Shown here in pieces: positions 6,221 to 32,667 of a stretch of 64,000 nucleotides of DNA. Each line of letters opens with the position of its first letter. Position 1 is the first letter of the stretch. This stretch comes from Solibacteraceae bacterium. Its GTDB lineage: Bacteria; Acidobacteriota; Terriglobia; Bryobacterales; Bryobacteraceae. The stretch lies in contig JAJPJX010000213.1 of the NCBI GenBank assembly GCA_021324015.1, positions 1-64,000 on the forward strand, written 5' to 3'. The notes beneath the pieces are model-generated. The model saw only the letters and a program-made list of their open reading frames with translations. It had not been told where the DNA came from and did not search any database. The position numbers and the translations under genes were made by a program.

Positions 6221-7540
6221 TCACGGCGACCGATCACAGTCCTTCGCAGCGATCGGCAGAAAAACTCCAAAAATGCCGCCGCCATGAATCTTAACCCCCA
6301 GCCAATCTTCTCGTAGTCGCGACGCCTCAGCGAAGGACATGCCGGTTTCGTGCGTGCCGCGGTTTCGATCCCGGATCAGATCATCGATCAGTTTCTTCAA
6401 CCGTGCCAGGTCAAGTCCCGTGCTGGTTCCATATTCCTTCAGTTCAGGTCTCGATGAAGTTAGCGCGATGCTAATCATCCCCAACATTATTTTCGGCACT
6501 GCTTCGCCCCTCCTTATGATCGGCTGCATCTTTTCGGGCGGCCGATCGGAACGGTGCTCTGGGCGGGATTCACCATTTGGGAAAACCAACACCTTCCGGC
6601 TCTTCAGATATTTGGCTAAGGAGGGGACGAATAGCTGCTTCACCTGAAGTTCGAAGGCCTTGGCCAACTGAGAGATTACACAATTCCAGTCCAGCGTTTC
6701 TGGATCCCTAAAGCGGCGTTCGGCGTCGAGCAGCACGGTCCGCGCATCGACACAGAGAGACGAATCGACGTTGATGCCGAGCACGTCCTTGAGGTACGTT
6801 TCAGCCTTGAACCTATCGGGAGCACCCAGTGCGTCAATCTTTGCACCAATGGTTTCCAGCCGCTCGATCGTGGGCATCTGGAAAGCTGATACCTGATCTG
6901 CAAGTTCGGCGATTCTGACGGCCGTCTCATCGTTGGGGCGACTCCGTCCCTCCGTGAGATCGCGATGCGCGGCGGCGATGGCAGGATGCAGGCCGGCATC
7001 GTCTTTGGGTGGGCCCAGGATATCGAGCCAATCACGCCATGTCCCGCCGTGATCCGTTTCCAGGTGTCCCGGGATGTTTTCGAGATCTCCGTCAGTCGGG
7101 ATGCTTGACGGGCGCTCGACCCTTAGACCCGAATGGACATGGTAGGCAACCCGCGCACAATAGAACTCTTCCTCCGTTAGAGCACGCACAAACGCCGCAC
7201 CTGATTCTTCTGACGACTCTGTTCTCCAAGCCAACCATGGATCATCAAGGCAGCTGTGGGCTGCGGCATAGTCGGACAGAGCTTCCCCCACGAGATGAGC
7301 CACGACTGTGGCTCGCCACGTTAAGATTTCTTCGGCGTTGTCGACGTCCTCGTCGAAGGCGGTGAGTGCAAAGTGTTCATCTTCCTCAGGATCCTCGTAG
7401 TAACCCCGGTAGTCGTCCAGGTCTAAGCATGCAATCTGTTCCGCGCGTTCTCGAGACCAAGTCAAACAGATTCTTAAAGCGCGTAGCAGCTCTCGCAACG
7501 CCTTCTCTTCATCCGACCAGTTGACCGGCGCGTCTGTCAC
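6221..7540 (-). CDS. Unknown protein with C-terminal HEPN-like RX4H motif
   Basis: Not a family I recognise over its full length (439 aa). It starts at a GTG preceded by AAGAGGGA. The N-terminal half is very acidic (DLDDYRGYYEDPEEDE and similar) with many Trp and no signal peptide. The C-terminal 170 residues are helical: a segment AKAFELQVKQLFVPSLAKYL, a polar loop, then a helix ending in DLIRDRNRGTHETG. R392 and H397 form an RX4H motif in the position used by HEPN RNases, and the following SFAEASRLREDWLG resembles the last helix of HEPN domains in abortive-infection proteins. Base composition is lower in GC than the neighbours, and a HicBA pair lies just upstream. A defence or toxin role is possible but only inferred. 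Confidence 0.7.
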   Translation of the reverse strand: MTDAPVNWSDEEKALRELLRALRICLTWSRERAEQIACLDLDDYRGYYEDPEEDEHFALTAFDEDVDNAEEILTWRATVVAHLVGEALSDYAAAHSCLDDPWLAWRTESSEESGAAFVRALTEEEFYCARVAYHVHSGLRVERPSSIPTDGDLENIPGHLETDHGGTWRDWLDILGPPKDDAGLHPAIAAAHRDLTEGRSRPNDETAVRIAELADQVSAFQMPTIERLETIGAKIDALGAPDRFKAETYLKDVLGINVDSSLCVDARTVLLDAERRFRDPETLDWNCVISQLAKAFELQVKQLFVPSLAKYLKSRKVLVFPNGESRPEHRSDRPPEKMQPIIRRGEAVPKIMLGMISIALTSSRPELKEYGTSTGLDLARLKKLIDDLIRDRNRGTHETGMSFAEASRLREDWLGVKIHGGGIFGVFLPIAAKDCDRSP

Positions 7541-7887
7541 GTGGGTCCCTCTTAGAAATAGCGGCTAGGAGCCGCCACAGACTCATGTTATCTACATTAC
7601 CTCTGCCGCCAACTTCAATAACGCCGGAGCGAACGAACAGGTGTTGTCGGCGGAACTTCGGATATCGCATGCGCTCCGCATTCGCGGTGGAAGTAGTCGG
7701 CTTCCGGGCGGTCATCGCATCCCGTCTCAGAGAGTCCAGCATGTTCTGGACCGTCCGCGAGTCTGGCACCCCGCTGCTGCCATCTCAACGGCCGGTTTGA
7801 GGACTACTGGGAGGCGTGCCTGGCGGCGTGATCTCCACTGCTATGTCGCGCTTAACCCCCGGCTTGTCGTATGCTCAATAAGTAGGC
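7541..7887. other. Intergenic stretch without a convincing gene
   Basis: About 350 bp between the HEPN-like gene and hicB. Short open frames exist on both strands (for example 7509-7769 minus and 7641-7901 plus), but none has a ribosome site, recognisable motif or family-like composition. A perfect 6-bp inverted repeat with a 3-base loop (GCGGCTAGGAGCCGC, 7561-7575) sits 20 bp upstream of the GTG of the HEPN-like gene and could be an operator or a 5'-leader hairpin. The stretch may hold decayed sequence and the divergent promoters of the two flanking genes. Confidence 0.4.
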
Positions 7888-19017: not shown

Positions 19018-19605
19018 TCACCTTGGGCGGTTCGCGGGCCAGGCGCGATCCAGGTCCATGTTCAGCAATAGCACGTTCACTCGCGGCTCGCCCAGAAAGC
19101 CGAGTTGGCGGCCCTCGGTGCGGGCGGCGATGAGGCGCCGCACCTGCTCCTCCGGCGCCCTCCTGGCGCGGGCGACGCGCGCCGCCTGCGCCTCGGCGGA
19201 AGCCGGGCTGATGTGCGGGTCCAGGCCGCTCGCCGAGGCAGTCAGCAGGTCGGCCGGGATGGGACCGTGGAAATCCGGGTTCTCCCGGCGAAACGCCGCG
19301 GCATCCGCCTGCACGCGTTCGATTAGTTTGCGGCTGGTGGGCCCCAGATTCGAACCGCCCGAATTGGCGGCGTCATAGCCGTCGCCCGCGGCCGAGGGAC
19401 GGCCGCGAAAATATTCCTGCCGCGTGAACTTCTGGCCAATCAGTTCCGAGCCGGCGACCTTGCCGTTCACGGTGATCAAGCTGCCGCCGGCCTGCCGCGG
19501 AAAGAGAACCCGCGCCAGCCCCGTGACCAGCGCCGGGTACAGCAGGCCGGTCAGCAGGCTCAGAACCACCGTTGCGCGAATCGCGGTTATCCATTGTTTC
19601 CACAT
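19018..19605 (-). CDS. kdpC: Potassium-transporting ATPase subunit C
   Basis: Single-span membrane subunit of the KdpFABC K+ pump that stabilises the complex and helps couple ATP binding. One N-terminal transmembrane helix ([19 protein letters not shown]) is followed by the periplasmic domain with [37 protein letters not shown] and a C-terminal [12 protein letters not shown] choose the ATG at 19605: the alternative ATG at 19620 is part of an ATGAGGAG sequence that overlaps the kdpB stop and provides the Shine-Dalgarno site. Product 195 aa, normal for KdpC. Confidence 0.95.
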
Positions 19606-19616
19606 GAAATTTCTCC

Positions 19617-21716
<2,100 letters not shown>

Positions 21717-21719
21717 GAT

Positions 21720-23534
21720 TTAGCTCCACCACCCGAACATCACCATCGAAAACAACTTGTGCTGCTGCATGAGGAGGTGCTCGACCAACGGTCCGAGCGC
21801 CAGAGCGGGGAAGAAGGTGAGCGCTCCGACGATCACCACCACCGCCACCAGCAGACCCACGAACAGGCTACCGTGCGTGGGCAGCGTGCCAGCCGAAGCG
21901 GGCACCACCTTCTTGCGCGCCAGGCTGCCGGCCACCGCCAGCAGCGGGATGATCATCAGGAAGCGCCCCACCCACATGGCCACCGCGATGGTGGTGTTGA
22001 ACCACGGAGTGTTGGCATTCAGCCCGGCAAACGCGCTGCCGTTGTTGCCCGTCCCGCTGCTGTAGGCATACAGGATTTCCGAGAGGCCGTGCGGGCCGCC
22101 GTTGTTGAGATTCGCCACCGCCGGTCCGGGCGGATTCACCCAACTGTTCTTGGCGAACTGAATGATCGCGCCCGCACCGGAGAATAACAGGATGCTGGCC
22201 GCCAGGGTGAGCACCGCGAGCATGACCATTTTGACTTCCTTCTGCTCGATCTTCTTGCCCAGGTACTCCGGCGTGCGGCCCACCATCAGGCCCGCGATAA
22301 ACACCGCCAGGATGGCGAACATCAACATGCCGTACAGGCCGGCGCCCACGCCGCCGAAAATGACCTCGCCGAGTTCGATGTTGATCAGCGGCACCAGGCC
22401 GCCCAGCGGCGTGAAGCTATCGTGCATGGAGTTCACCGCACCGCAACTGGCGTCCGTCGTGACCACGGCGAACAGCGCCGAGGCCGGGATGCCGAAGCGC
22501 GCTTCCTTCCCCTCCATGTTGCCGCCGGGCTGGGAGGCGCTGGCCTGGCTTTGCACCCCCAGGCCTGCGAGCATCGGGTTGCCCGCCTGTTCCGAAGCGT
22601 AGGTCACCAGCACGCCGGCGAAGAACAGTACGCTCATAGCGGCGAACAGCGCCCATCCCTGGCGGGTATCCTTCACCATGCGCCCAAACGTGTAGGTCAG
22701 GCCCGCGGGGATCAGGAAGATGAACAGTGTCTCGAGCAGGTTGGAGAGCGGCGTGGGATTTTCGAAGGGATGCGCCGAATTGGCGTTGAAGAAGCCGCCG
22801 CCGTTGGTGCCTAGCATCTTGACGGCCTCCTGCGAGGCCACCGGCCCTTGCGCGATGGTCTGTGCGCCGCCTTCCAACGTCGTGGCCGCCGTGTACCCGT
22901 GGAAATTCTGGATCACCCCTTGCGAAACCAGCAGCAGCGCGCCTGCCACGGAGAGCGGCAGCAGCACGTACACGGTGGCCCGCACCAGGTCCACCCAGAA
23001 GTTGCCGATCGCTTCCGCGCTGTGGCGCGCAAAACCACGCACCAGGGCGATGGCCACGGCGATCCCGGCTGCCGCCGAGAAGAAATTGTGCGTGGCGAGC
23101 GCGAGCATCTGGGTGAGGTAGCTCATGGTGGTCTCGGGGACGTAGGATTGCCAGTTCGTGTTGGTCGTGAAGCTGACGGCTGTGTTGAAGGCCAGGTCCG
23201 GCGTCATGGCTGCGGCGCCCTGCGCCGCGTGAGCCGTGCCGAGGCCCTGCGGGTTCAGCGGAAGCCAGCCCTGCAAGCGCTGGATCAGGTATGTGACCAG
23301 AAGCGTCACGGCACTGAACACCAGCAGCGAGATGGCGTACTCCGTCCAGCGCTGCTCCCGGTCCTCGCGAATGCCGCAGAACCGGTAGATGCCTCTTTCG
23401 ATCGGGCGTAGCAGCGGGTCGAGCCGCGTGCCCCGGCCCTCGAAGAGCTTCTCCATGAAGATCCCCAGGGGCTTGGTCAGGGCCAGTATGACCAGGAAGA
23501 AAACGGCAATTTGCAGCCATCCGTTGGCGGTCAT
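21720..23534 (-). CDS. kdpA: Potassium-transporting ATPase subunit A (K+ channel-like)
   Basis: Membrane subunit (604 aa) of the SKT superfamily that binds and translocates K+. Selectivity-filter-like loops are visible: [56 protein letters not shown] and [19 protein letters not shown]. Ten or so hydrophobic helices surround them. The ATG at 23534 has a strong GAGGAGG upstream, inside the gap after kdpF. This is a complete high-affinity Kdp system; expression is normally induced by K+ limitation through KdpDE. Confidence 0.97.
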
Positions 23535-23546
23535 CGTGCGCCTCCT

Positions 23547-23630
23547 CTAGAAACGTTCGGGGCGCAGCAGGGCGTACACCAGGTACACCGCCAGCCCCAG
23601 CGAAAGCAGACCTGCGATGAGATATTCCAT
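23547..23630 (-). CDS. kdpF: KdpF small membrane subunit
   Basis: 27-residue hydrophobic peptide, one transmembrane helix: starts MEYLIAGLLSLGLAVYLVY and ends ALLRPERF, the typical KdpF ending (LxxPERF). It stabilises the KdpABC complex. It is preceded by GAGG at suitable spacing and lies 12 bp upstream of kdpA. It is short enough to be missed by ordinary gene prediction. Confidence 0.93.
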   Translation of the reverse strand: MEYLIAGLLSLGLAVYLVYALLRPERF

Positions 23631-23639
23631 GGAAGACCT

Positions 23640-23723
23640 CTACAAACGGTCGCAGCCGTACACATACGCGCAGCTCACGGCCAGCAACACCAGCGTTACG
23701 ACGATAAACACCAGATCCAGCAT
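23640..23723 (-). CDS. Unnamed 27-residue membrane peptide upstream of kdpF
   Basis: An 84-bp frame reading MLDLVFIVVTLVLLAVSC, then AYVYGCDRL and TAG. It is one hydrophobic helix with a short polar C-terminal CDRL end. GAGAGG stands 9 bp before the ATG, and the frame fits exactly between the USP-like gene (13 bp away) and kdpF (9 bp away). Position, ribosome site and helix composition argue that it is translated. I have the impression that similar peptides ending in C-[DE]-R-L precede kdpF in other high-GC genomes, but could not check. It may be an extra small Kdp subunit or a regulator of Kdp assembly. Confidence 0.72.
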   Translation of the reverse strand: MLDLVFIVVTLVLLAVSCAYVYGCDRL

Positions 23724-23736
23724 TTCAGGCAACCTC

Positions 23737-24189
23737 TCAAACCTTTACGAGCGCAACGCCATGGCCGGCGCGCGAAAGCCCGCGGGCCATTCTCTCCTCT
23801 CGCGTTCGCCACCAGCGCTTCCGCGTGGCCACCACCACCAGGGCCCGGCCGCGCAACATCTGCCGGAGGGCCTGCTCGCGGTCGCGGGCCAGAACCAGGC
23901 GGACTCCGCAGGACATTCCGCTAGCCGACACGAAGGCTTCCAGTTGTTCGCGCAGGCGGGCCAGCGGAACATCGGGATAGTGCAGGGGTAGCGGGTATGG
24001 CACGATGTGCACGGCCAGCAGGATCGTTTCGATGTGGAGTCCGCGAGCCATCCCGGCGGCGGCCGCCAAAGCCGCGCGAGTCAATTTCGGCGTGGTGTAG
24101 GGGATGATGACCTGAAGCCGGCCGGCGTGTTCCGAATGGTTGCCGGTCCGGAGACGGGATCCGGCTGTGGCGCTAAGCATGGTAGCCAT
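23737..24189 (-). CDS. Universal-stress-like protein, first gene of the kdp operon
   Basis: 150 aa. The segment LQVIIPYTTPKLTRAALAAA opens a USP-like alpha/beta fold, followed by the amphipathic ARGLHIETILLAVHIVPYPL, a helix ARLREQLEAFVSASG, then VRLVLARDREQALRQML and ALVVVATRKRWWR, which replaces the usual ATP-binding GxxGxxG loop. Nucleotide binding is therefore doubtful. Start either at 24189 or at the ATG at 24180. It precedes the 27-residue peptide and kdpFABC on the same strand with 13 bp spacing; a link to K+ or turgor sensing is inferred from context. Confidence 0.72.
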   Translation of the reverse strand: MATMLSATAGSRLRTGNHSEHAGRLQVIIPYTTPKLTRAALAAAAGMARGLHIETILLAVHIVPYPLPLHYPDVPLARLREQLEAFVSASGMSCGVRLVLARDREQALRQMLRGRALVVVATRKRWWRTREERMARGLSRAGHGVALVKV

Positions 24190-24213
24190 CCATGTTCAGC
24201 CTAGATCGCCGGA

Positions 24214-24235
24214 CCTTAAGAAGTCGTTAAGGAAG
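24214..24235. promoter_or_regulatory. Candidate KdpE-type operator upstream of the kdp operon
   Basis: On the plus strand, TTAAGAAG (24216-24223) and TTAAGGAAG (24227-24235) form a direct repeat with an 11-bp period, the spacing used by OmpR/PhoB/KdpE-type winged-helix regulators. The same bases form the inverted repeat CCTTAA-N7-TTAAGG (24214-24232). It lies 25 bp upstream of the first kdp operon start. KdpE is encoded about 1 kb away. No binding data exist; the assignment is by pattern and position. Confidence 0.45.
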
Positions 24236-24308
24236 GCTTGGGATTTTGTTATGGCGTATTCGACCGCTTCCTTTGGTCGCGGCTCGGTTCCATTGCGCAA
24301 CATTTCGA

Positions 24309-24321
24309 GGCCATTTTGGCC
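24309..24321. promoter_or_regulatory. Perfect palindrome before the methyltransferase gene
   Basis: GGCCATTTTGGCC, a 5-bp inverted repeat with a TTT centre, ends 11 bp upstream of the ATG at 24333. It could be an operator or a leader hairpin over the ribosome site. The gene has no clear Shine-Dalgarno sequence of its own (ATAGGTGC is the closest match). Confidence 0.3.
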
Positions 24322-24332
24322 ACAATAGGTGC

Positions 24333-25064
24333 ATGGACGCGAGCCGGGTCCGCGAACTGGTGCGCGAGGCGTACTCCGCAGCGGCGGAGGCGCCCGAGGC
24401 CGGGCACGCCTTCCCGGTCGGGCGCGCTTTTGCCGAAAGCCTGGGGTATTGCGGCGAGTGGCTGCAGGAGATCCCGGATGAATCCGTGGAGGCTTTCTCC
24501 GGAGTGGCAGGTGTTTCGCTAAATGCGGCGATCCCGCCCGGCGCCGCCGTTCTCGATCTAGGCTGCGGGGCCGGCCTGGACAGTTTCATCTCGGCGCGGC
24601 GCGCCGGGCCGGGAGGTCGGATCCTGGGAATCGACTTCAGCGCCGCCATGCTGAAACGCGCCGTTTCCGCGGCGAAGACCGCGCGCGCCGCGAGCCTTCT
24701 CTTCTGCCAGGCGGACGGGGAGCGGCTTCCGGTGAAGACCGGCTCCATCGACGTGGCCCTGGTGAACGGCATCTTCAACCTGAATCCGGCGCGCGGCGCG
24801 ATTTTCGCCGAACTGGCCCGGGTGGTGCGGAGGGGCGGCGCCGTGTATGCAGCCGAGCTCATCCTTCGCCAGCCACCGCCCCCTGCCGCTACCGCGAATC
24901 TGACCGATTGGTTTGCCTGAATCGCCGGCGCGAAGGAGGGCGGCGCTTTCCTCGAAGAGTTTCAGGTCGCCGGCTTCCGCGAAGCTTCGATCGTGCGCGC
25001 GACGCGCAATGCGCGCACGAAGAATCCGCTGGTGCTGGCCGCCGAAGTGGTGGCCCGCCGATAG
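24333..25064 (+). CDS. Probable selenoprotein: ArsM-like SAM-dependent methyltransferase with in-frame TGA (Sec196)
   Basis: Class I methyltransferase of the arsenite-methyltransferase-like group. SAM motif I is VLDLGCGAGLDSF (from residue 73), followed by GRILGIDFSAAMLKRA, the acidic QADGERLPV and VALVNGIFNLNP. Read to the TGA at 24918-24920 the protein would be 195 aa and lack the last strands. The same frame continues for 47 codons to TAG at 25062 with IAGAKEGGAFLEEFQVAGF and ARTKNPLVLAAEVVARR, which match the family C-terminus. The TGA aligns with the Cys of the W-x(2-3)-C-[IVL]-[AG]-GA motif that binds As(III) in ArsM. The other binding Cys (VNC in ArsM) is Gly here. selB is encoded nearby, so UGA decoding as selenocysteine is likely (243 aa). 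Substrate (As, Se or other soft atom) is inferred. Alternative: a nonsense-mutated gene. Confidence 0.8.
24932..24950 (+). promoter_or_regulatory. Candidate bacterial SECIS hairpin after the TGA
   Basis: GAAGG (24932-24936) can pair with CTTTC (24946-24950, one G-U pair), leaving the apical loop AGGGCGGCG that begins 17 nt after the TGA and has G at its second position, as bacterial SECIS models require. Competing folds are CGCCG (24923-24927) with CGGCG (24941-24945), and GCGC (24928-24931) with GCGC (24943-24946). Which one forms cannot be decided by eye. Confidence 0.45.
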
Positions 25065-25067
25065 CCC

Positions 25068-25763
25068 TCACCCCTCTTCCGCCGCGGCGAAGCGGTAGCC
25101 CACCCAGGGCTCCGTCAGGATGTACTTCGGTTTGCCGGGATCGGGCTCGATCTTCTTGCGCAGGTGGTTGATGAATACCCGCAGGTAATCGGATTCGTCG
25201 CCGTAGTCCGGACCCCACACGGCTTGCAGCAGCTCGCGGTGCGGCACGGGCTTGCCGCCTTGCAGGAACAGGTAACGCAGCAGGTCGAACTCCTTGGGCG
25301 TGAGCCGTACGGGTTTGCCTTTCACGCGGATGCGGCGCGTTTCGAAATCCATCTCCAGATCCCGCGTGGCGAAGCTGCGCGGCCCGCTTTCCGGCGCCGT
25401 GGGCGCGCGGCGCAGGGCCGCCCGGATGCGCGCCAGCAATTCCTGCATGCCGAAGGGCTTGCTCACGTAATCGTCCGCCCCGGCGTCCAGGGCCTCCACC
25501 TTGTCCTTCTCGGAATTTCGCACCGTGAGGATGATGATGGGCACGTCGGAGGAAGCGCGCAGGGTGCGGCAGGCTTCCAGGCCGCCTATGCCAGGCATGT
25601 TCAGATCCAGCAGCACCAGGTCCGGCAGGTAGGCGCGGAACTTCTCCAGGGCCTCCTCGCCGGTTCTGGCCTCATCCACCTGGTAGCCGCTGCCGGTGAG
25701 CGTGGCACGCATCATGCGCCGGATCTGCGGCTCGTCATCCACCACCAGGATCTTGGCGCTCAT
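25068..25763 (-). CDS. kdpE: KdpE-type OmpR-family response regulator
   Basis: 231 aa. Receiver domain with D9/D10, phospho-acceptor D53 in LVLLDLNMPGIGG, the Thr in ILTVRNSEKDK and Lys in YVSKPF. The C-terminal winged helix (about 135-225) contains VRLTPKEFDLLRYLF and LRVFINHLRKKIEPDP, very close to KdpE. Its start overlaps the stop of the kinase gene by ATGA, so it is coupled to it. Its 3' end stops 3 bp from the convergent methyltransferase TAG. It should activate the kdp operon whose promoter lies about 1 kb away. Confidence 0.94.
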   Translation of the reverse strand: MSAKILVVDDEPQIRRMMRATLTGSGYQVDEARTGEEALEKFRAYLPDLVLLDLNMPGIGGLEACRTLRASSDVPIIILTVRNSEKDKVEALDAGADDYVSKPFGMQELLARIRAALRRAPTAPESGPRSFATRDLEMDFETRRIRVKGKPVRLTPKEFDLLRYLFLQGGKPVPHRELLQAVWGPDYGDESDYLRVFINHLRKKIEPDPGKPKYILTEPWVGYRFAAAEEG

Positions 25764-27205
25764 GCGCGGACCTCCCCTTTGTAGACCGGCAGCGTGAAGC
25801 CGAACACCGAGCCTTTTCCCGGCTCGCTGGCCACCCAGATGCGCCCGCCGTGCGCCTCCACGATGCCCTTGGCGATGGAAAGCCCCAGGCCCGTGCCGGG
25901 CACTCCACGCGCTTCGCGCCCGCGGAAGAACTTGTCGAAGATGCGCGCCTGCTCCTGCTCGTCGATCCCCCGCCCCCGGTCGGCCACGCGGATTTCCAGC
26001 CGGCCCCCCGCAAACCGCGCCGCAATCGTGATGGGTGAGCCACCGGGCGAGTACCTTACGGCGTTATCCAGCAGTTGCTTGATCACCTGCTGGATGAAGT
26101 CGCCGTCTACCTCAGCGGGCGGCAGGCCTTCGGGCAGGTCCAGGCTCACCGGGTGACCCTGGAGGGTCCCTTCCAGCTCTCGCAAAGCGCCCGCCACCAG
26201 GGAGGAAACCCTGTGCGGCTGCCGGTCGGGATGCAGCTTGGAGGCCTCGATCCGCGCCATCTCGAGCACTTCCACCACCAGCCGGTTTAGACGATCGGTT
26301 TCTTCGTTGGCGATGCTCAGCAACTCGCGCTCCTCGGGCCCGGGGCCGCGGGCCAGCAGATGCGTCACCGAACCTTTGATGGAGGTGAGCGGAGTTTTCA
26401 GGTCGTGCGCCAGCGCGTCCAGCAGCGCGGATTTGAAGGCTTCGCTGCGGTGCGCCAGTTCGGCCCGGCTGGCCTCTTCGAGCACGCGTGCCCGCTCCAG
26501 GCCGATGGCCACCAGGTTGGCCAGGGCCTTCAGCACTGTTTTCGAGAGCCGCACACCGGCCAGTCCCAGGCTCCCGAAGACTGTGCCGCCCAGCCGCACG
26601 GCCACCAGGGCGGTGCCCCTCTGCTCGTCCACCAGAGGCTCGTCCCGCTCCGCTGCGGCGCGCAACTCTTCCTCGCCGAACGCCGCCGGCCCGGAGCGGT
26701 GAAATTCCCCGTCCGCCTTGTTGAAGAAGGCGATCGCAGGAGCTTCGAACGTTCGCATCACCAGGTTCAGGAAGTCGCGCGGCGTGGGGCGCAGCCCGCC
26801 GGTCATCAGCATGGCTTGGCCCAATGCGTAGAGCCGCTCGAGTTCCCGCCGCCGCCCGATGGCCTCAGCGGCCTGCCGTCTGGCCCGCACGGAAAGCTGG
26901 CTGGCGGTGATGGCCGTCACCAGGAAGGCCACCAGCGCCACCCAGTTTTGCGGGTCTGCGATCGTAAACGTGCCTACCGGCGGCAGGAAAAAGAAGTTGA
27001 AGCCCGCCACTGCGACGAAGGAAGCCAGGATGGCCTCCGGGAGCCCCCAGCGCGTGGCCAACCCGAGGATGGCCAGCAGCAGGCTCAGCGCCACGGTCGT
27101 GTGGTTGACCGGCAGCCACAGGTAGTAGAGCGCGAGGATCGCGGCGGCGATCGCGGCGGACGCAGCCAGACGTATGCCTCGCCGCGCGCCGGTCTCCCAG
27201 TTCAT
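25760..27205 (-). CDS. kdpD: KdpD-type sensor histidine kinase lacking the N-terminal KdpD/USP part
   Basis: 481 aa equal to the C-terminal half of KdpD. A DUF4118 four-helix membrane region (residues about 10-110) has AILALYYLWLPVNHTTVALS and VAGFNFFFLPPVGTFTI. A GAF-like domain (about 125-245), HisKA with phospho-His in LLDALAHDLKTPLTSIKG, and HATPase_c with KQLLDNAVRYSPGGSP, VADRGRGI and GTGLGLSIAKGIVEAHGG follow. The N-terminal ATP-binding and USP modules are encoded separately, in two copies, in the kdp operon. Start and stop both overlap neighbours by ATGA (selB upstream, kdpE downstream). Confidence 0.93.
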   Translation of the reverse strand: MNWETGARRGIRLAASAAIAAAILALYYLWLPVNHTTVALSLLLAILGLATRWGLPEAILASFVAVAGFNFFFLPPVGTFTIADPQNWVALVAFLVTAITASQLSVRARRQAAEAIGRRRELERLYALGQAMLMTGGLRPTPRDFLNLVMRTFEAPAIAFFNKADGEFHRSGPAAFGEEELRAAAERDEPLVDEQRGTALVAVRLGGTVFGSLGLAGVRLSKTVLKALANLVAIGLERARVLEEASRAELAHRSEAFKSALLDALAHDLKTPLTSIKGSVTHLLARGPGPEERELLSIANEETDRLNRLVVEVLEMARIEASKLHPDRQPHRVSSLVAGALRELEGTLQGHPVSLDLPEGLPPAEVDGDFIQQVIKQLLDNAVRYSPGGSPITIAARFAGGRLEIRVADRGRGIDEQEQARIFDKFFRGREARGVPGTGLGLSIAKGIVEAHGGRIWVASEPGKGSVFGFTLPVYKGEVRA

Positions 27206-29070
27206 AAGACCAGTCTTTCGTCACCCTCGCGGCGGGTGACATGCTCGCGGTCCAGAAACTCCAGCAACGGGATGGCATACTTGCGCGAGATCCCTGTCCA
27301 CTCCTTGAAGGTGCCTACGTTGAACCGCTCGGACTTGTGCGCGGCCAGCAACTGGCGCAGTCCTCCGATGGCCGCGTGGTGGAAGACCAGGTCTTCGCTG
27401 ACGCGAACAAGCACTTTCTCGCGGACCAGGATTTGCAGCAGCGTGCGGGCGCGGGCGGGCTCGACGCCGGACTTGGCCAACACCTCGGCGACCTGCGGCA
27501 CGGCCAGGCCGGCCTGTGCGAAGGCGCGCTCGATGGCGGCGCGGGCCTGCTCTTCATCCTGCTTCAGCACCACGCGGTGCGCGGCCAGGCGCACCGTCTC
27601 ACCCTCCACGGCAAGCTCTTTCGCCTCCGCCAGCAGCGCGTCGATCAGAAAAGGCGGCGAGCCGGCCAGCTCCCGGCTGCGCAGGTCCTGCTTGCCGATG
27701 CCCGGGAGCAGGGGGTTTTGCTGGTGAAAGGCGCGCACGGCGTGCGCCAGGCGGCCGCGCGCGGCGGCGAACCAGGCGCGGTCCAGCAGCCAGGGCTGCG
27801 GCTGGCGCAGCAGGACCAGCGGCGCGGCGGCCGCGGCCGCTTCGATCTCCCGCGCCAGCCGGCCGGTGCGGGCCACCAGTTCCGCCACGCTCCGGCCGTA
27901 CGGCGCCTCGCGCACCAGCAGCGCCAGCCGCTCGGCCAGCACCGGCGAGGCCAGCGCGCGCAGCCGCGCGGCTACGTCGTCGGTGCGGCGGTACCGCACC
28001 CCGCCGGTATCCACCACCGCGCCGCCGGCGATAGTGACCACCGGCGAGAACATGCGCAAAATGAAGCGGTCGCCCGGCAGCAGCAGGGCGGGTTCGCGCA
28101 GCACGAGGCGCGCGTAGGCGCGCCCTCCCGGCGCCAGCGCCGCGGCGCCGAACAGCCGCACCTCCGCTTCGATCTCCTCCGTGCCGGCGTGGAAGTGTAC
28201 CGGCGCGCGATGTTTCAAAGGCTTGGCCGACGGCAGCAGTTCCAGCACGCAGTCCGCTTGCCGCACCGCGGCGAAGGTTCCGGGCTCGGAGAGCGTCATG
28301 CCGCGGGCCAGTTCGGAAGGTTCGACATCGGCCAAGTTCAAGGCCGTGCGCTGGCCGGCGCGGGCCTCAGCCGCGGGCTCGCCATACACCTGCAGGCCGC
28401 GCACCCGCAGGCGCCGCCCCAGCGGATATACCTCGACTTCCTGCTCTTTGCGGACCCTGCCGGAGACCAGCGTGCCGGTGACCACCGTGCCGAATCCCTT
28501 CACCGTGAACACCCGGTCGACCGGCAGGCGGAAGTGGCCCGCGGAGTCTTTTTCCGGCACTTCCGAGGCCACCCGCTCCAGTTCCCGCCGCAATTCCTCC
28601 AGGCCGCGGCCGGTCACCGCGCTCACCGCCACTACCGGCGCGCTTTCCAGGAACGACGCGGCCACGAATTCCTCCACTTCCAGACGCACCAACTCCAGCA
28701 GATCGGCGTCCACCAGGTCCGCCTTGGTGATCACCACGATGCCGCGCGGGATGCCCAGCAGCCGGCAGATCTCGAAGTGCTCCCGGGTTTGCGGTTTAAT
28801 GGATTCGTCGGCGGCCACCACGAATAGCACCAGGTCGATGCCGCCCACACCGGCCAGCATGTTCTTCACGAAGCGCTCGTGCCCCGGCACATCCACGAAA
28901 CCCAGGCGCAGGGCGGGCGTCAGGGAGAGATGAGCGAAGCCGATGTCGATGGTAATGCCCCGCCGTTTCTCCTCCTCCAACCGGTCCGCGTCGATGCCCG
29001 TGAGAGCCTTCACCAGCGCCGTTTTCCCGTGGTCGATGTGCCCGGCCGTGCCCACGATGATGTTTTTCAT
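27202..29070 (-). CDS. selB: Selenocysteine-specific elongation factor SelB
   Basis: Dedicated GTPase that brings Sec-tRNA(Sec) to UGA codons by binding the SECIS hairpin. The G domain has [19 protein letters not shown] (P-loop), the [12 protein letters not shown] switch, [15 protein letters not shown] and VITKADLVD. Beta-barrel domains 2 and 3 follow ([20 protein letters not shown]). The C-terminal 250 residues contain the winged-helix repeats that bind SECIS, ending [24 protein letters not shown]. 622 aa against about 614 in E. coli. The frame opens further upstream, but [15 protein letters not shown] at 29070 is the family start. It is coupled by ATGA to the KdpD-type kinase. selA, selC and selD are not in this window. 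Confidence 0.96.
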
Positions 29071-29995
29071 GCCGCTCGTTCTCATCCTACTTGGCTTTCC
29101 GCTGGCCGCGCAGCAGACTCCCACGGAAACGCCGGTCTTTCGCGGCGGCATTTCGCTGGTGCGCCTGGACGTGCAGGTGGCCGGCGCCGGCGGGCGCCTG
29201 ATTCCAGACCTGGGCGCCGGCGATTTCCTGGTCTTTGACGACGGCCGGCCGCAGAAGCTCGCGCACTTCGGGCGCGAAGCCGAACACGTGGACCTGCTGC
29301 TTCTGCTGGATGTGAGCGGCAGCATGCACCGCTTCCTGGAGGAAATGGCCGCCAGCGCGCGGGCGGCGCTAGCGCCGCTGGGTGCGGGCGACCGGGTGGC
29401 CGTGATGCTGTTCTCCCGCGAGGCCGCCGTGCGCCAGCCCTTCACCCAGGACTTCGCCGCGGTGCAGGCACAGATCCGCCAGGCCGTCGAGGACCGCAGC
29501 CTGGGCAGCGGGACGGCCATCAACGCGGCCATCATCGCCGCCGCTCAATACCTCGAGCAGCAGCCGGTGCGAGGACGCCGCGCGATCCTCATTGTGACCG
29601 ACAACCAGATGCTCAACTACCAGGTGCCGGACGAGGCCGTGACCCAGGAACTGTACCGCGCCGACGCGGTGCTCAACGCCATCCTGATCGGCAAGCAACT
29701 GCATCCCGATCCGGGGAAGCCCGGGCGCTACCGGAACCCGGATTTCACGCCCCCGGACGTCTTCAAGCTGGCTGGAGAGACCGGCGGCGAACTCATCGAG
29801 GAGCGCAAATCGCGCAATTCTTTCGCGGAGATGATCGAGCGGCTGCGCGCCCGCTACGCCCTGGCCTACGATGCTCCGCCCGGCGGCAAGCCCGGCGAGT
29901 TCCATGCGATCCGGGTGGAACTCAGTCCGGAGGCACAGAGGCGCTATCCGAGGGCGATCGTGCGGGCGCGCGCGGGATATTTCGCGGAGAAGTGA
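29069..29995 (+). CDS. VWFA-related secreted protein (Acidobacteria-type)
   Basis: About 308 aa. A hydrophobic signal-like start ([16 protein letters not shown]) is followed by a beta-sandwich N-domain ([36 protein letters not shown]) and a von Willebrand factor A domain with the complete MIDAS motif DVSGSM and later [11 protein letters not shown] and [10 protein letters not shown]. This resembles the VWFA-related domain common in Acidobacteria. The start codon lies within the same CATG as the selB start on the other strand; ATGs at 29057 and 29060 are alternatives and would give a slightly longer signal peptide. Function: likely protein-protein or metal-dependent adhesion outside the cytoplasm; partner unknown. 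Confidence 0.82.
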
Positions 29996-30010: not shown

Positions 30011-32667
30011 TCAAAGCAAAGAGACATCCAGCGGTCTCGCCTCCGCCTCGAAATGGACGGCACACTGCCGCAGCACCCGCGTTAATTCTTCCCCATGTTC
30101 TTCCGACAGACAGTCACCATGCGACCCCGGAATCTGGCGCACTTCGACGCCGGCCGCCACGTTCTGCCAGCCCATCTGGAGATCGGTCGTGCGCCACAGA
30201 GTCGGGATGCGCGTCCGCAACACAATCACCTCACCCTCGTATCTTGCCGGAACATAAGCGAGCATCGCGCGGTACATCACGTTCAGAAACGCCTGGTAAG
30301 CATCCGGAAGCTTTTCCTGGCCGAAGTAGATCCTGGGATCCAACTCCGCAGGCGCCGCAAGGCCGCGAAAGGACCGACGGAGCCGATCGAGGTTGCCGCG
30401 CGCGCGTGCGAGGAATTTTCGGCCCTGAAAGTGCAACGCTTCGTGAGCTGCCCACGCCGGCAGGTTGCACACCATGTCCAGTACGAGCCTGGCAGTGGAG
30501 CGGCGATACGTTCCGGGAGCGTTCAGCGCCGGCATGTCGATGACAACCGGCAAGGGATCCCAATGGCCGTTTTTCCGAAGCTGCCGCGAGACTTCAAATG
30601 CCACCACGCCCGCAAAGGAGTGGCCCACCACGATCGCGCGCCCGCCGCGGGGAACGATCGTCCGAATCTCGGCGGCATACCGCGCCGCGATCGACTCCAC
30701 GGAAACTGCCGCGCCCGCCAGATCCGTGGAAGGTAGGGCTAATCCATAAGCTGGATGCCGCGCAGCGAGGCCTGAGGCGACACGCCGGTATCCCAGGACC
30801 GAGCCGCCGATGCCAGCCACAAAAAAGAAAGGGCAGCCCTCGCCCTCCCTCTGGAAGACCACCGAAGTCTCCGGCCGAATCCCCCCGCCGGCGATACGGT
30901 CCACCCAATGCGCAAGATCGCGAAGCACGGGGTGGCGCTGAATATAGTCGGGGGGAAGGTCGCAGCCGAGGCGCTCGTTTACAGCGACCAGCACGCGCAC
31001 CGCACTGAGCGAATCGCCGCCCAAATCCTCGAAGCGGTCGTCCGGGGTGACGCCGGGCCGCTGCAAAACCTCCTCCCAGATGGCGCGCAGGACCTCCAGA
31101 GTCCCGCCGGAGTGCGGCCCGGCTTCTTTCTCGCGCGGAGCGGGCGGCGGCGGAAGACGGTGGAGATCGAGCTTGAAGTTCGCATTCAGGGCAACTCCGG
31201 CAAAAACACGAAAGCCGCGGGAACCGCGTATGCCGGCAACCGCTCCCTGAGGAAGCCGCGCAGGTGGCCCTCCGTCAAATCGGTATCTTCCCGCGGCGCG
31301 ACGTAAGCCACCAGCCGGCCGTGGCCGCCGGCGTCTTCGCGTCTCACGACCACCGCGTTCCGGACCGCGGGATGCGACTCGATCGCTTGCGCGATGGCTC
31401 CCAGTTCGACCCGGTGGCCGCGGACCTTCACCTGCGAATCCGTGCGGCCCAGAAACACAAGGCTTCCATCAGCGCGAAGCCGGCCGCGGTCGCCCGTGCG
31501 ATAGCGGATCGTGCCATCGGGCTGAATTTGGAATTTCTCGGCGGTGCGCCGCGGGTCGTTCGCATAGCTGGTGGCGATGTAGCGGCTCCGCACCACAATT
31601 TCGCCTTCGCCGCCTTCCGGAACCGGAGCGCCGGTCTCGTCCATCACGGTCACGGCCTTTCCGGCCACCGGCCACCCGATTGGCACGGGGTTCTCCACCG
31701 GGCCCCGACCGGGGACGAAATATTGCGCGTAGGTGCGGGTTTCGGTGGAGGCCATCGCGTTCTGTAACACGCACGAAGCGCCAAACACCGACCGGAACAT
31801 CTCGACATCGCCGGCCTTGAGAGCCTCTCCGCTCACCGACAACAGCCTCAGGCTGGGGCAGCCCGGCCGGCTGCGCCGGGCCATACAGATGTGCCGGAGC
31901 ATCGAAACCGTCATGGTGCTGATGGTGATGCGGCGTTCGGCGAGCCAGTCGAAAAGCCCGGTCAACTGGTGGCGCGGATCGTGATGATGCAGTTCCGCGC
32001 CGTTCAGCAAGGCACCGAAAACGGTCGCCAGGGACGCGCTGAATGCCGACGAAAACAGCGAATCGAAGCGGTCATCGGGACCGAGGCAAAGATCGTTGGT
32101 TTGGCGTCCGATATCGAAGAGCACCGCCCGATGGGGCAGTGCTACGATCTTTGGCTCGCCGGTGGATCCGGAGGTGGCATACATCGCGGCGGTCCCGCCG
32201 GGACCGCGCGTATCGGCCGCGCGGACACCGCGAGCTTTGCCGTCCGCCGGCGCGTCGCCGAGCACGGTCAAAGGAGCAGCAGCCTCCAGCAGCCCGGCGA
32301 TCTGCGCCGTTGGCAGCGAGGGGTCTGCGCAGAAATAACCGAAGCCCCCGGCCAGCGCTCCTAACATGGCCTCGATGGTGGGCAGGCCGGAAGGCAAACA
32401 GATACCCACGATGCCGCCCGCGCCACCCCACCGCGAGCGCAGCGTCGCGGCAATCGTCTCCGCTCGCAGCAACAGGTCCGCATAACTGATGCGGGCGCCG
32501 CCGTCCACAAGAGCAATCGCGTTGCCTCGCCGCAGCGCCGTTTCCCGAAAGCGTGCGCCCAGCGTGGACTCCGCATCCGCGGGATTGAAGGGCCGGAAGC
32601 CGGCGCGCGGCGTGAAGCCGTTGGTGTGGGCCAGCGGCGAGCGACACGGCGCGATTGCGGGAGTCAT
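30011..32667 (-). pseudogene. NRPS-like A-PCP-TE protein, split by a frameshift
   Basis: One tridomain enzyme in two frames. Residues 1-493 (32667 down to 31186) are an adenylation domain: MYATSGSTGEPKIV, NAMASTETR, YRTGDRGRLRADGSLVFLGR and VKVRGHRVELG. It ends abruptly at AAFVFLPELP. In the -1 frame the expected A10 motif appears at once (ALNANFKLDL), followed by a carrier domain with LGGDSLSAVRV and an alpha/beta-hydrolase thioesterase with GHSFAG and the His in GSHGDC. Adding one base to the five-A run at 31202-31206 restores a frame with exact family spacing. The ATG overlaps the GNAT gene stop (ATGA). Either a recent inactivating mutation or a homopolymer error. It would activate an amino or aryl acid and release it by hydrolysis or transfer. 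Confidence 0.83.

Follow-up and report, generated by a model that had tools for sequence, protein, structure and literature searches.

The methyltransferase gene and its surroundings

The window analysed in our study is a stretch of 64,000 nucleotides of Solibacteraceae DNA (contig JAJPJX010000213.1), and it carries on its forward strand, at 24333..25064, a gene for a SAM-dependent methyltransferase that is predicted to contain selenocysteine (Sec). The frame opens with the ATG at 24333, meets a TGA at 24918-24920 (codon 196) and then runs for 47 sense codons to a TAG at 25062-25064, as a preliminary description of the locus had reported. The protein would have 243 residues and a single Sec, and the frame closes at residue 243 without a second domain. 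Pfam and NCBIfam assign it to the SAM methyltransferases, in agreement with its relatives and its modelled structure, and its best NCBIfam matches are Sec-containing ArsM fusion families, each of which scored below its cut-off.

The gene lies alone on the forward strand, flanked on one side by a KdpD/KdpE-like pair and on the other by kdpABC, and these neighbours are all on the reverse strand (19018-27205). Its stop codon and that of the KdpE-like gene (kdpE) are 3 nt apart, and since kdpE ends in TGA, TGA serves as an ordinary stop in this genome. The KdpD-like sensor kinase is short (481 residues, with DUF4118, HisKA and HATPase domains). An ORF of 150 residues at 23737-24189 on the reverse strand had no Pfam match at 0.001; judged by eye, it may be akin to a universal stress protein. 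A scan of promoters and terminators found none. The gene for the Sec-specific elongation factor, selB, lies at 27202..29070 on the reverse strand (TIGR00475, 380.9 bits against a cut-off of 242.25). Its listed ORF spans 27202-29535, and as SelB homology begins at residue 159 of this ORF, the gene probably starts near 29070. At 30011-32667, also on the reverse strand, an AMP-binding enzyme and then a carrier-plus-thioesterase protein form a small NRPS-like pair.

Conservation of the TGA codon and of the tail that follows it

A search of 396 genomes of the phylum with the whole protein returned four relatives besides the window, at 58-62% identity and with one TGA per match, all reading (D/N)WFA-U-IAGA. 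A family scan of genome contigs, designed to avoid bias, used a query alignment of residues 1-195 only and was blind to residue 196. Each hit had to contain either A[LI]VNGIFN or H[PA]FPVG[RVQ][AH]F, two peptide patterns that do not include Sec196; such a scan may miss divergent or Cys-containing relatives, and the invariance of Gly146 and His25 is partly built into it. The scan yielded 46 loci from 11 phyla, with L030-L033 taken as the same records as L054, L061, L059 and L070 and counted once. By record titles and tree labels these were Acidobacteriota (20), Chloroflexota (7), Myxococcota/Deltaproteobacteria (6), Planctomycetota (3), Methylomirabilota, Nitrospirota and Rokubacteria (2 each), and Verrucomicrobiota, Actinomycetota, Pseudomonadota and Gemmatimonadota (1 each).

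The codon for residue 196 was TGA in all 45 loci that reach the site, with a conserved tail after it, and Cys was found in none of them; L080, which is cut before the site, was left out of the codon counts. L067 has TGA at this codon although its alignment match ended at query residue 194. The preliminary description had proposed Sec at residue 196, and had named as grounds for doubt relatives that end at the TGA and a tail unlike that of Cys-containing family members. None of the 45 readable relatives ends there, and the tail aligns with that of Cys-type ArsM. On this comparison, together with the selection on the tail, the hairpin and the decoding machinery described below, TGA 196 is almost certainly read as selenocysteine, a reading strongly supported by comparison rather than by experiment.

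That the coding signal persists after the TGA, as had also been claimed, was borne out by the substitution patterns. Across the 47 tail codons, the window compared with 44 relatives gave a mean pN of 0.21 and pS of 0.67, with pN below pS in 44/44 comparisons, while the 47 codons before the TGA gave 0.34 and 0.70, with pN below pS in 39/44. Nucleotide identity was 0.66 over the tail and fell to 0.27 over the 90 nt beyond the second stop, and no stop occurred within the first 46 tail codons (0/45 tails); L039 and L080 were left out of these selection comparisons. Tails end at most 50 residues past the Sec codon in 43 of 45 genes, the others ending after 56 (L074) and 28 residues (L039). Judged from these patterns, the tail is under purifying selection. 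The final stops of the 45 clade genes are TAA (19), TAG (15) and TGA (11), and this use of TGA, which also ends kdpE in the window, gives some footing to the view that TGA 196 is a true stop, leaving a truncated methyltransferase of 195 residues or a decaying gene with a leftover open frame. A TGA at the same residue in every readable relative across 11 phyla, the constrained tail and the loss of similarity only past the second stop make that view very improbable.

The clade is rare, with 5 of the 396 genomes of the phylum carrying it, yet it is spread over 11 phyla, and this combination suggests horizontal transfer of the gene between phyla. Viral contigs gave 11 distant matches (23-41% identity), and 93 plasmid records matched, all below 60% identity, the best 10 of the 93 at 30-35%.

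A SECIS-like hairpin after the TGA

Computationally, a SECIS-like hairpin was found soon after the TGA, resting on a conserved fold and on synonymous-codon controls. In the window it would pair 24934-24941 with 24945-24952 on the forward strand, around an apical loop at 24942-24944. Counted from the T of the TGA, columns 17-24 of the consensus pair with columns 28-35, and the loop lies 22-24 nt past the TGA, within the range of about 16-37 nt for bacterial SECIS loops. The paired share of the 360 cells was 90.6%, compared to 87.9% after shuffling and 50.6-64.2% when the hairpin was slid. Five of the eight pairs show some change on both sides. The version slid by -1 had 24 double-change cells against 8 and 13 further pair types against 12, though only 64.2% of its cells were paired. 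Covariation is weak, the RNAalifold term being near zero (+0.25).

Redrawing synonymous codons with the protein fixed gave a clearer signal. The 48 nt from the TGA were more stable than their redraws (mean z -0.83, s.e. 0.16, n=46), as were three other starts that contain the hairpin (mean z -0.80 to -0.83), compared to -0.27 to +0.19 for seven starts without it. The hairpin interval alone reached a mean z of -1.83 (s.e. 0.11) with 46/46 below the median, an optimistic value since the interval was picked on the same, related sequences. Twelve other offsets gave mean z values of -0.37 to +0.07 in the same test; at one control, offset +75, 38/46 were below the median with a mean z of only -0.12. 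Family II, another clade of single-domain Sec methyltransferases (LW..UIAGA; L096-L108, L110 and L116), has a different hairpin in the same place (mean z -1.46, 15/15 below the median). Single sequences were also folded against shuffles (n=7: five of the clade, two of family II), and a clear advantage showed in L036 alone (z -2.45). The window's own post-TGA stretch, folded alone, was worse than average (z +1.39), a result that speaks for a true stop at codon 196.

Selenocysteine decoding machinery

The genome from which the window derives (8.2 Mb, 214 contigs) contains a tRNA-Sec with anticodon TCA, selA and selD over their cut-offs and the selB of the window. The preliminary description had held that a genome lacking selA, selC and selD would speak against its reading; selA, the tRNA-Sec and selD are all present. 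The selD gene (L025:1501-2424) has a TGA in its own frame near the start, in AAGUASKLSP, and looks like a selenoprotein gene of the Sec type. Two further tRNA candidates, L010 and L011, passed the tRNA-Sec cut-off, but ARAGORN called both tRNA-Ser.

The near end of selB was confirmed to lie 2.1 kb from the methyltransferase gene, on the other strand, but the proposal that this proximity reflects linkage found no counterpart elsewhere: tblastn of SelA, SelB and SelD against the 46 loci (flanks of up to 6 kb, many shorter) gave a match in none. The nearness of selB in the window is incidental. Across the phylum, selA was detected in 252/396 genomes and in three of the five that carry the clade (G000, G164 and G211), and was not found in the other two, G104 and G266; its co-occurrence with the clade is weak evidence because so many genomes of the phylum have it. 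For selB, G104 was over the cut-off, and G266 gave two partial matches below it, a threshold that 11 of 14 control genomes also reach.

Decoding of the TGA as some other amino acid (Cys, Trp or a near-cognate residue), by ordinary readthrough or a changed code, would suit the Cys found at the aligned position in 16/16 ArsM rows. We regard it as having next to no chance of being correct, as TGA ends kdpE and 11 of the 45 clade genes, a SECIS-like hairpin follows the codon, and the tRNA-Sec and sel genes are present.

Predicted structure

An AlphaFold2 model, built from an alignment of 42 rows (L039, L079, L080, L081 and L082 were left out), had a mean pLDDT of 92.2 and a pTM of 0.91, and takes the SAM-binding methyltransferase fold of ArsM type. 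After residue 196 the tail is modelled as a helix (203-213) and two strands (217-224 and 234-242). Termination at residue 195 would therefore take away the end of the fold, which again argues against a true stop. The model is weakest at residues 181-200, with a mean pLDDT of 63 for 181-190 and 71 for 191-200, and the local active-site geometry just before and around Sec is uncertain for this reason.

The best solved matches to the model were CrArsM 5evj (Z 25.2, rmsd 2.0, 202 residues aligned), CmArsM 4fr0 (Z 24.7, rmsd 2.1, 204 aligned) and 6cx6 (Z 23.9, rmsd 2.4, 212 aligned), and Foldseek likewise ranked ArsM first. The first solved match outside ArsM was AtmM 6uv6 (Z 21.1), and the human structure 8xt7 scored Z 19.0. 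Solved O-, N- and C-methyltransferases match the model too, at Z of about 19-21, and a fold in common with ArsM does not show the substrate.

Ligand sites and phylogeny

Kinship to ArsM, and the alignment of Sec196 with the conserved Cys before the [IVL]-x-GA motif, had both been put forward in the preliminary description, and both were upheld, the residue being Cys224 of CmArsM. In ArsM, Cys72, Cys174 and Cys224 are conserved and bind arsenite (PMC5552862). The analogy that had been drawn with As(III) binding holds for one ligand of the three, Cys224, which is replaced by Sec; the other two are missing throughout the clade. In the window protein the place of Cys72 is taken by Val58 (codon 24504..24506, forward strand) and that of Cys174 by Gly146 (codon 24768..24770, forward strand). 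All three places were Cys in 16/16 ArsM rows, compared to Val/Ile/Leu, Gly and Sec in 45/45 clade rows and Thr/Val/Ile, Gly and Sec in 13/13 rows of family II. Gly146 was also present in the five clade members found with the whole protein, outside the pattern-based scan.

The only near-invariant Cys of the clade is C78 of the SAM-binding motif (43/45), and there is no second conserved Cys near Sec. Trp193 is present in 45/45 rows and His25, which lies within one of the scan patterns, in 43/45; both residues may contribute to the pocket.

A branch with support of 100/99 in the 76-row tree separated the 45 clade rows from 13 Sec rows of family II, two Cys rows and 16 canonical ArsM rows. The tree was midpoint-rooted and its bootstrap had not fully settled. 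L080, L082, L101 (the same gene as L036) and L116 (a fragment) were left out of both the tree and the ligand-site counts.

Proposed function and its alternatives

We somewhat favour a single-Sec methyltransferase that acts on a soft metal or metalloid. UGA 196 would be decoded as Sec by SelB and the tRNA-Sec, directed by the hairpin just downstream, and this one Sec would stand in for the three-cysteine arsenite site in a single-domain member of an ArsM-related branch. SAM would be bound in the Rossmann fold, and the selenolate of Sec196, on the loop that carries Cys224 in ArsM, would bind a soft acceptor so that the methyl group passes to it directly, probably with the help of an external thiol. 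Candidate acceptors are As(III), methyl-As(III) and other trivalent metalloids, along with further soft metals and metalloids, and the enzyme may have a role in detoxification.

This reading is favoured by the first place of ArsM among solved folds and by the one locus (L032/L059) in which arsR and a Cys-type arsM adjoin the clade gene. Counting against a metalloid role, the clade lacks two of three As(III) ligands, gene neighbours vary widely among the 46 loci, only 1/46 has an arsM-type neighbour, and Cys-type ArsM is already encoded twice in the window's own genome (L002 and L003). A tentative possibility is a family that relies on Sec alone as soft ligand or nucleophile, has moved from phylum to phylum as a stand-alone gene, and acts on something different from arsenite, such as a species of selenium, tellurium, antimony or mercury, or a small selenol.

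Two other neighbouring genes deserve mention. A member of the window's clade is directly followed by a family II Sec methyltransferase (3766 onward) in the Chloroflexi genome L075. In L077, an AhpC/TSA-domain frame beside the methyltransferase (6784-7650) has an in-frame TGA in RYUAFSREEM, at what we take to be the place of the CxxC of thioredoxin-like proteins, and is possibly another selenoprotein.

The absence of two ArsM ligands would also suit a Sec methyltransferase with a non-metal acceptor (a thiol, selenol, nucleoside or other small molecule), in which Sec is a catalytic nucleophile or a redox switch, and the match of the model to solved O-, N- and C-methyltransferases is consistent with this. 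So is the phosphorylase-superfamily gene that adjoins 7/46 loci (L042, L049, L053, L058, L069, L071 and L076; PF01048 was confirmed in both loci scanned with Pfam, L042 and L058), although this pairing is limited to Acidobacteriota (7 of the 20 loci of that phylum). As ArsM structures lead by Z and the only near-invariant Cys belongs to the SAM-binding motif, leaving Sec without a conserved Cys partner, we consider a non-metal acceptor unlikely.

Returning to the soft-acceptor enzyme, a clade with Sec in every readable member and without another metal-binding Cys offers a natural test of what selenium contributes to methyl transfer. Gene-prediction programs that treat every TGA as a stop would lose the last fifth of the enzyme, which could also be counted wrongly in inventories of arsenic-methylation genes.

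Comparison with known families

Most selenoproteins with an assigned function are oxidoreductases (PMC2398784), although arsM is also listed among selenoproteins (PMC2398784, PMC9312934) and a methyltransferase selenoprotein has been reported in algae (PMC2375036). A 2026 review counts arsenite methyltransferase (NF008823, UxxG) among the selenoproteins with reference to Fomenko et al. 2007, and it adds the fusion families NF041536, NF041537 and NF047649, with two to three Sec, with reference to Haft and Tolstoy 2025 (PMC13188914). The suggestion that the window protein is a new selenoprotein in kind was therefore not sustained, as a Sec form of arsenite methyltransferase had already been listed. 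Our literature search turned up no single-domain family with these features; the most relevant work, Haft and Tolstoy 2025, lay outside the search and may cover it.

Canonical ArsM/AS3MT proteins (CmArsM 4fr0, CrArsM 5evj and human 8xt7) are the closest solved folds, but the matched ArsM chains have 377-387 residues, whereas the window protein ends at 243. TtArsM of Thermus thermophilus, described as a natural single-cysteine arsenite methyltransferase (PMC8649762), likewise does without a three-cysteine site, and since it works with a single cysteine, arsenite may still be a substrate of the clade. Compared by description only, it differs in that its single Cys77 lies elsewhere and it is not presented as a selenoprotein in the account that we compared (PMC8649762).

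The Sec arsenite methyltransferase of NF008823/PRK11873 shares with the clade an ArsM-related fold and one Sec at the same position, in U-x-x-G (UIAG in the clade). Its listed example is WP_011987699.1, and the family is set apart by profile score: eight clade members, the window included, scored 137-170 bits against a cut-off of 263. The same eight scored 176.9-195.1 bits against 510 for NF041537 (AhpD), 155.9-186.7 against 460 for NF047649 (UXPK-star) and 140.6-182.7 against 575 for NF041536 (DUF2284), and none of the NCBIfam models claims them. These three families are the best NCBIfam matches, and the part that can be aligned is the methyltransferase, with the listed motif UxxG (PMC13188914), but they are fusions with two to three Sec each, whereas the clade is single-domain with one Sec. 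Family II (Acidobacteriota; L096-L108 and L110) resembles the window's clade in having the equivalents of Sec196 and Gly146 in 13/13 rows and a post-TGA hairpin of its own, but it forms a separate clade, marked by the motifs FHFH.G and LW..UIAGA and by a different tail. Taken together, Sec at this position of ArsM is already known as a kind, and what appears to be new is the separate single-domain clade to which the window protein belongs.
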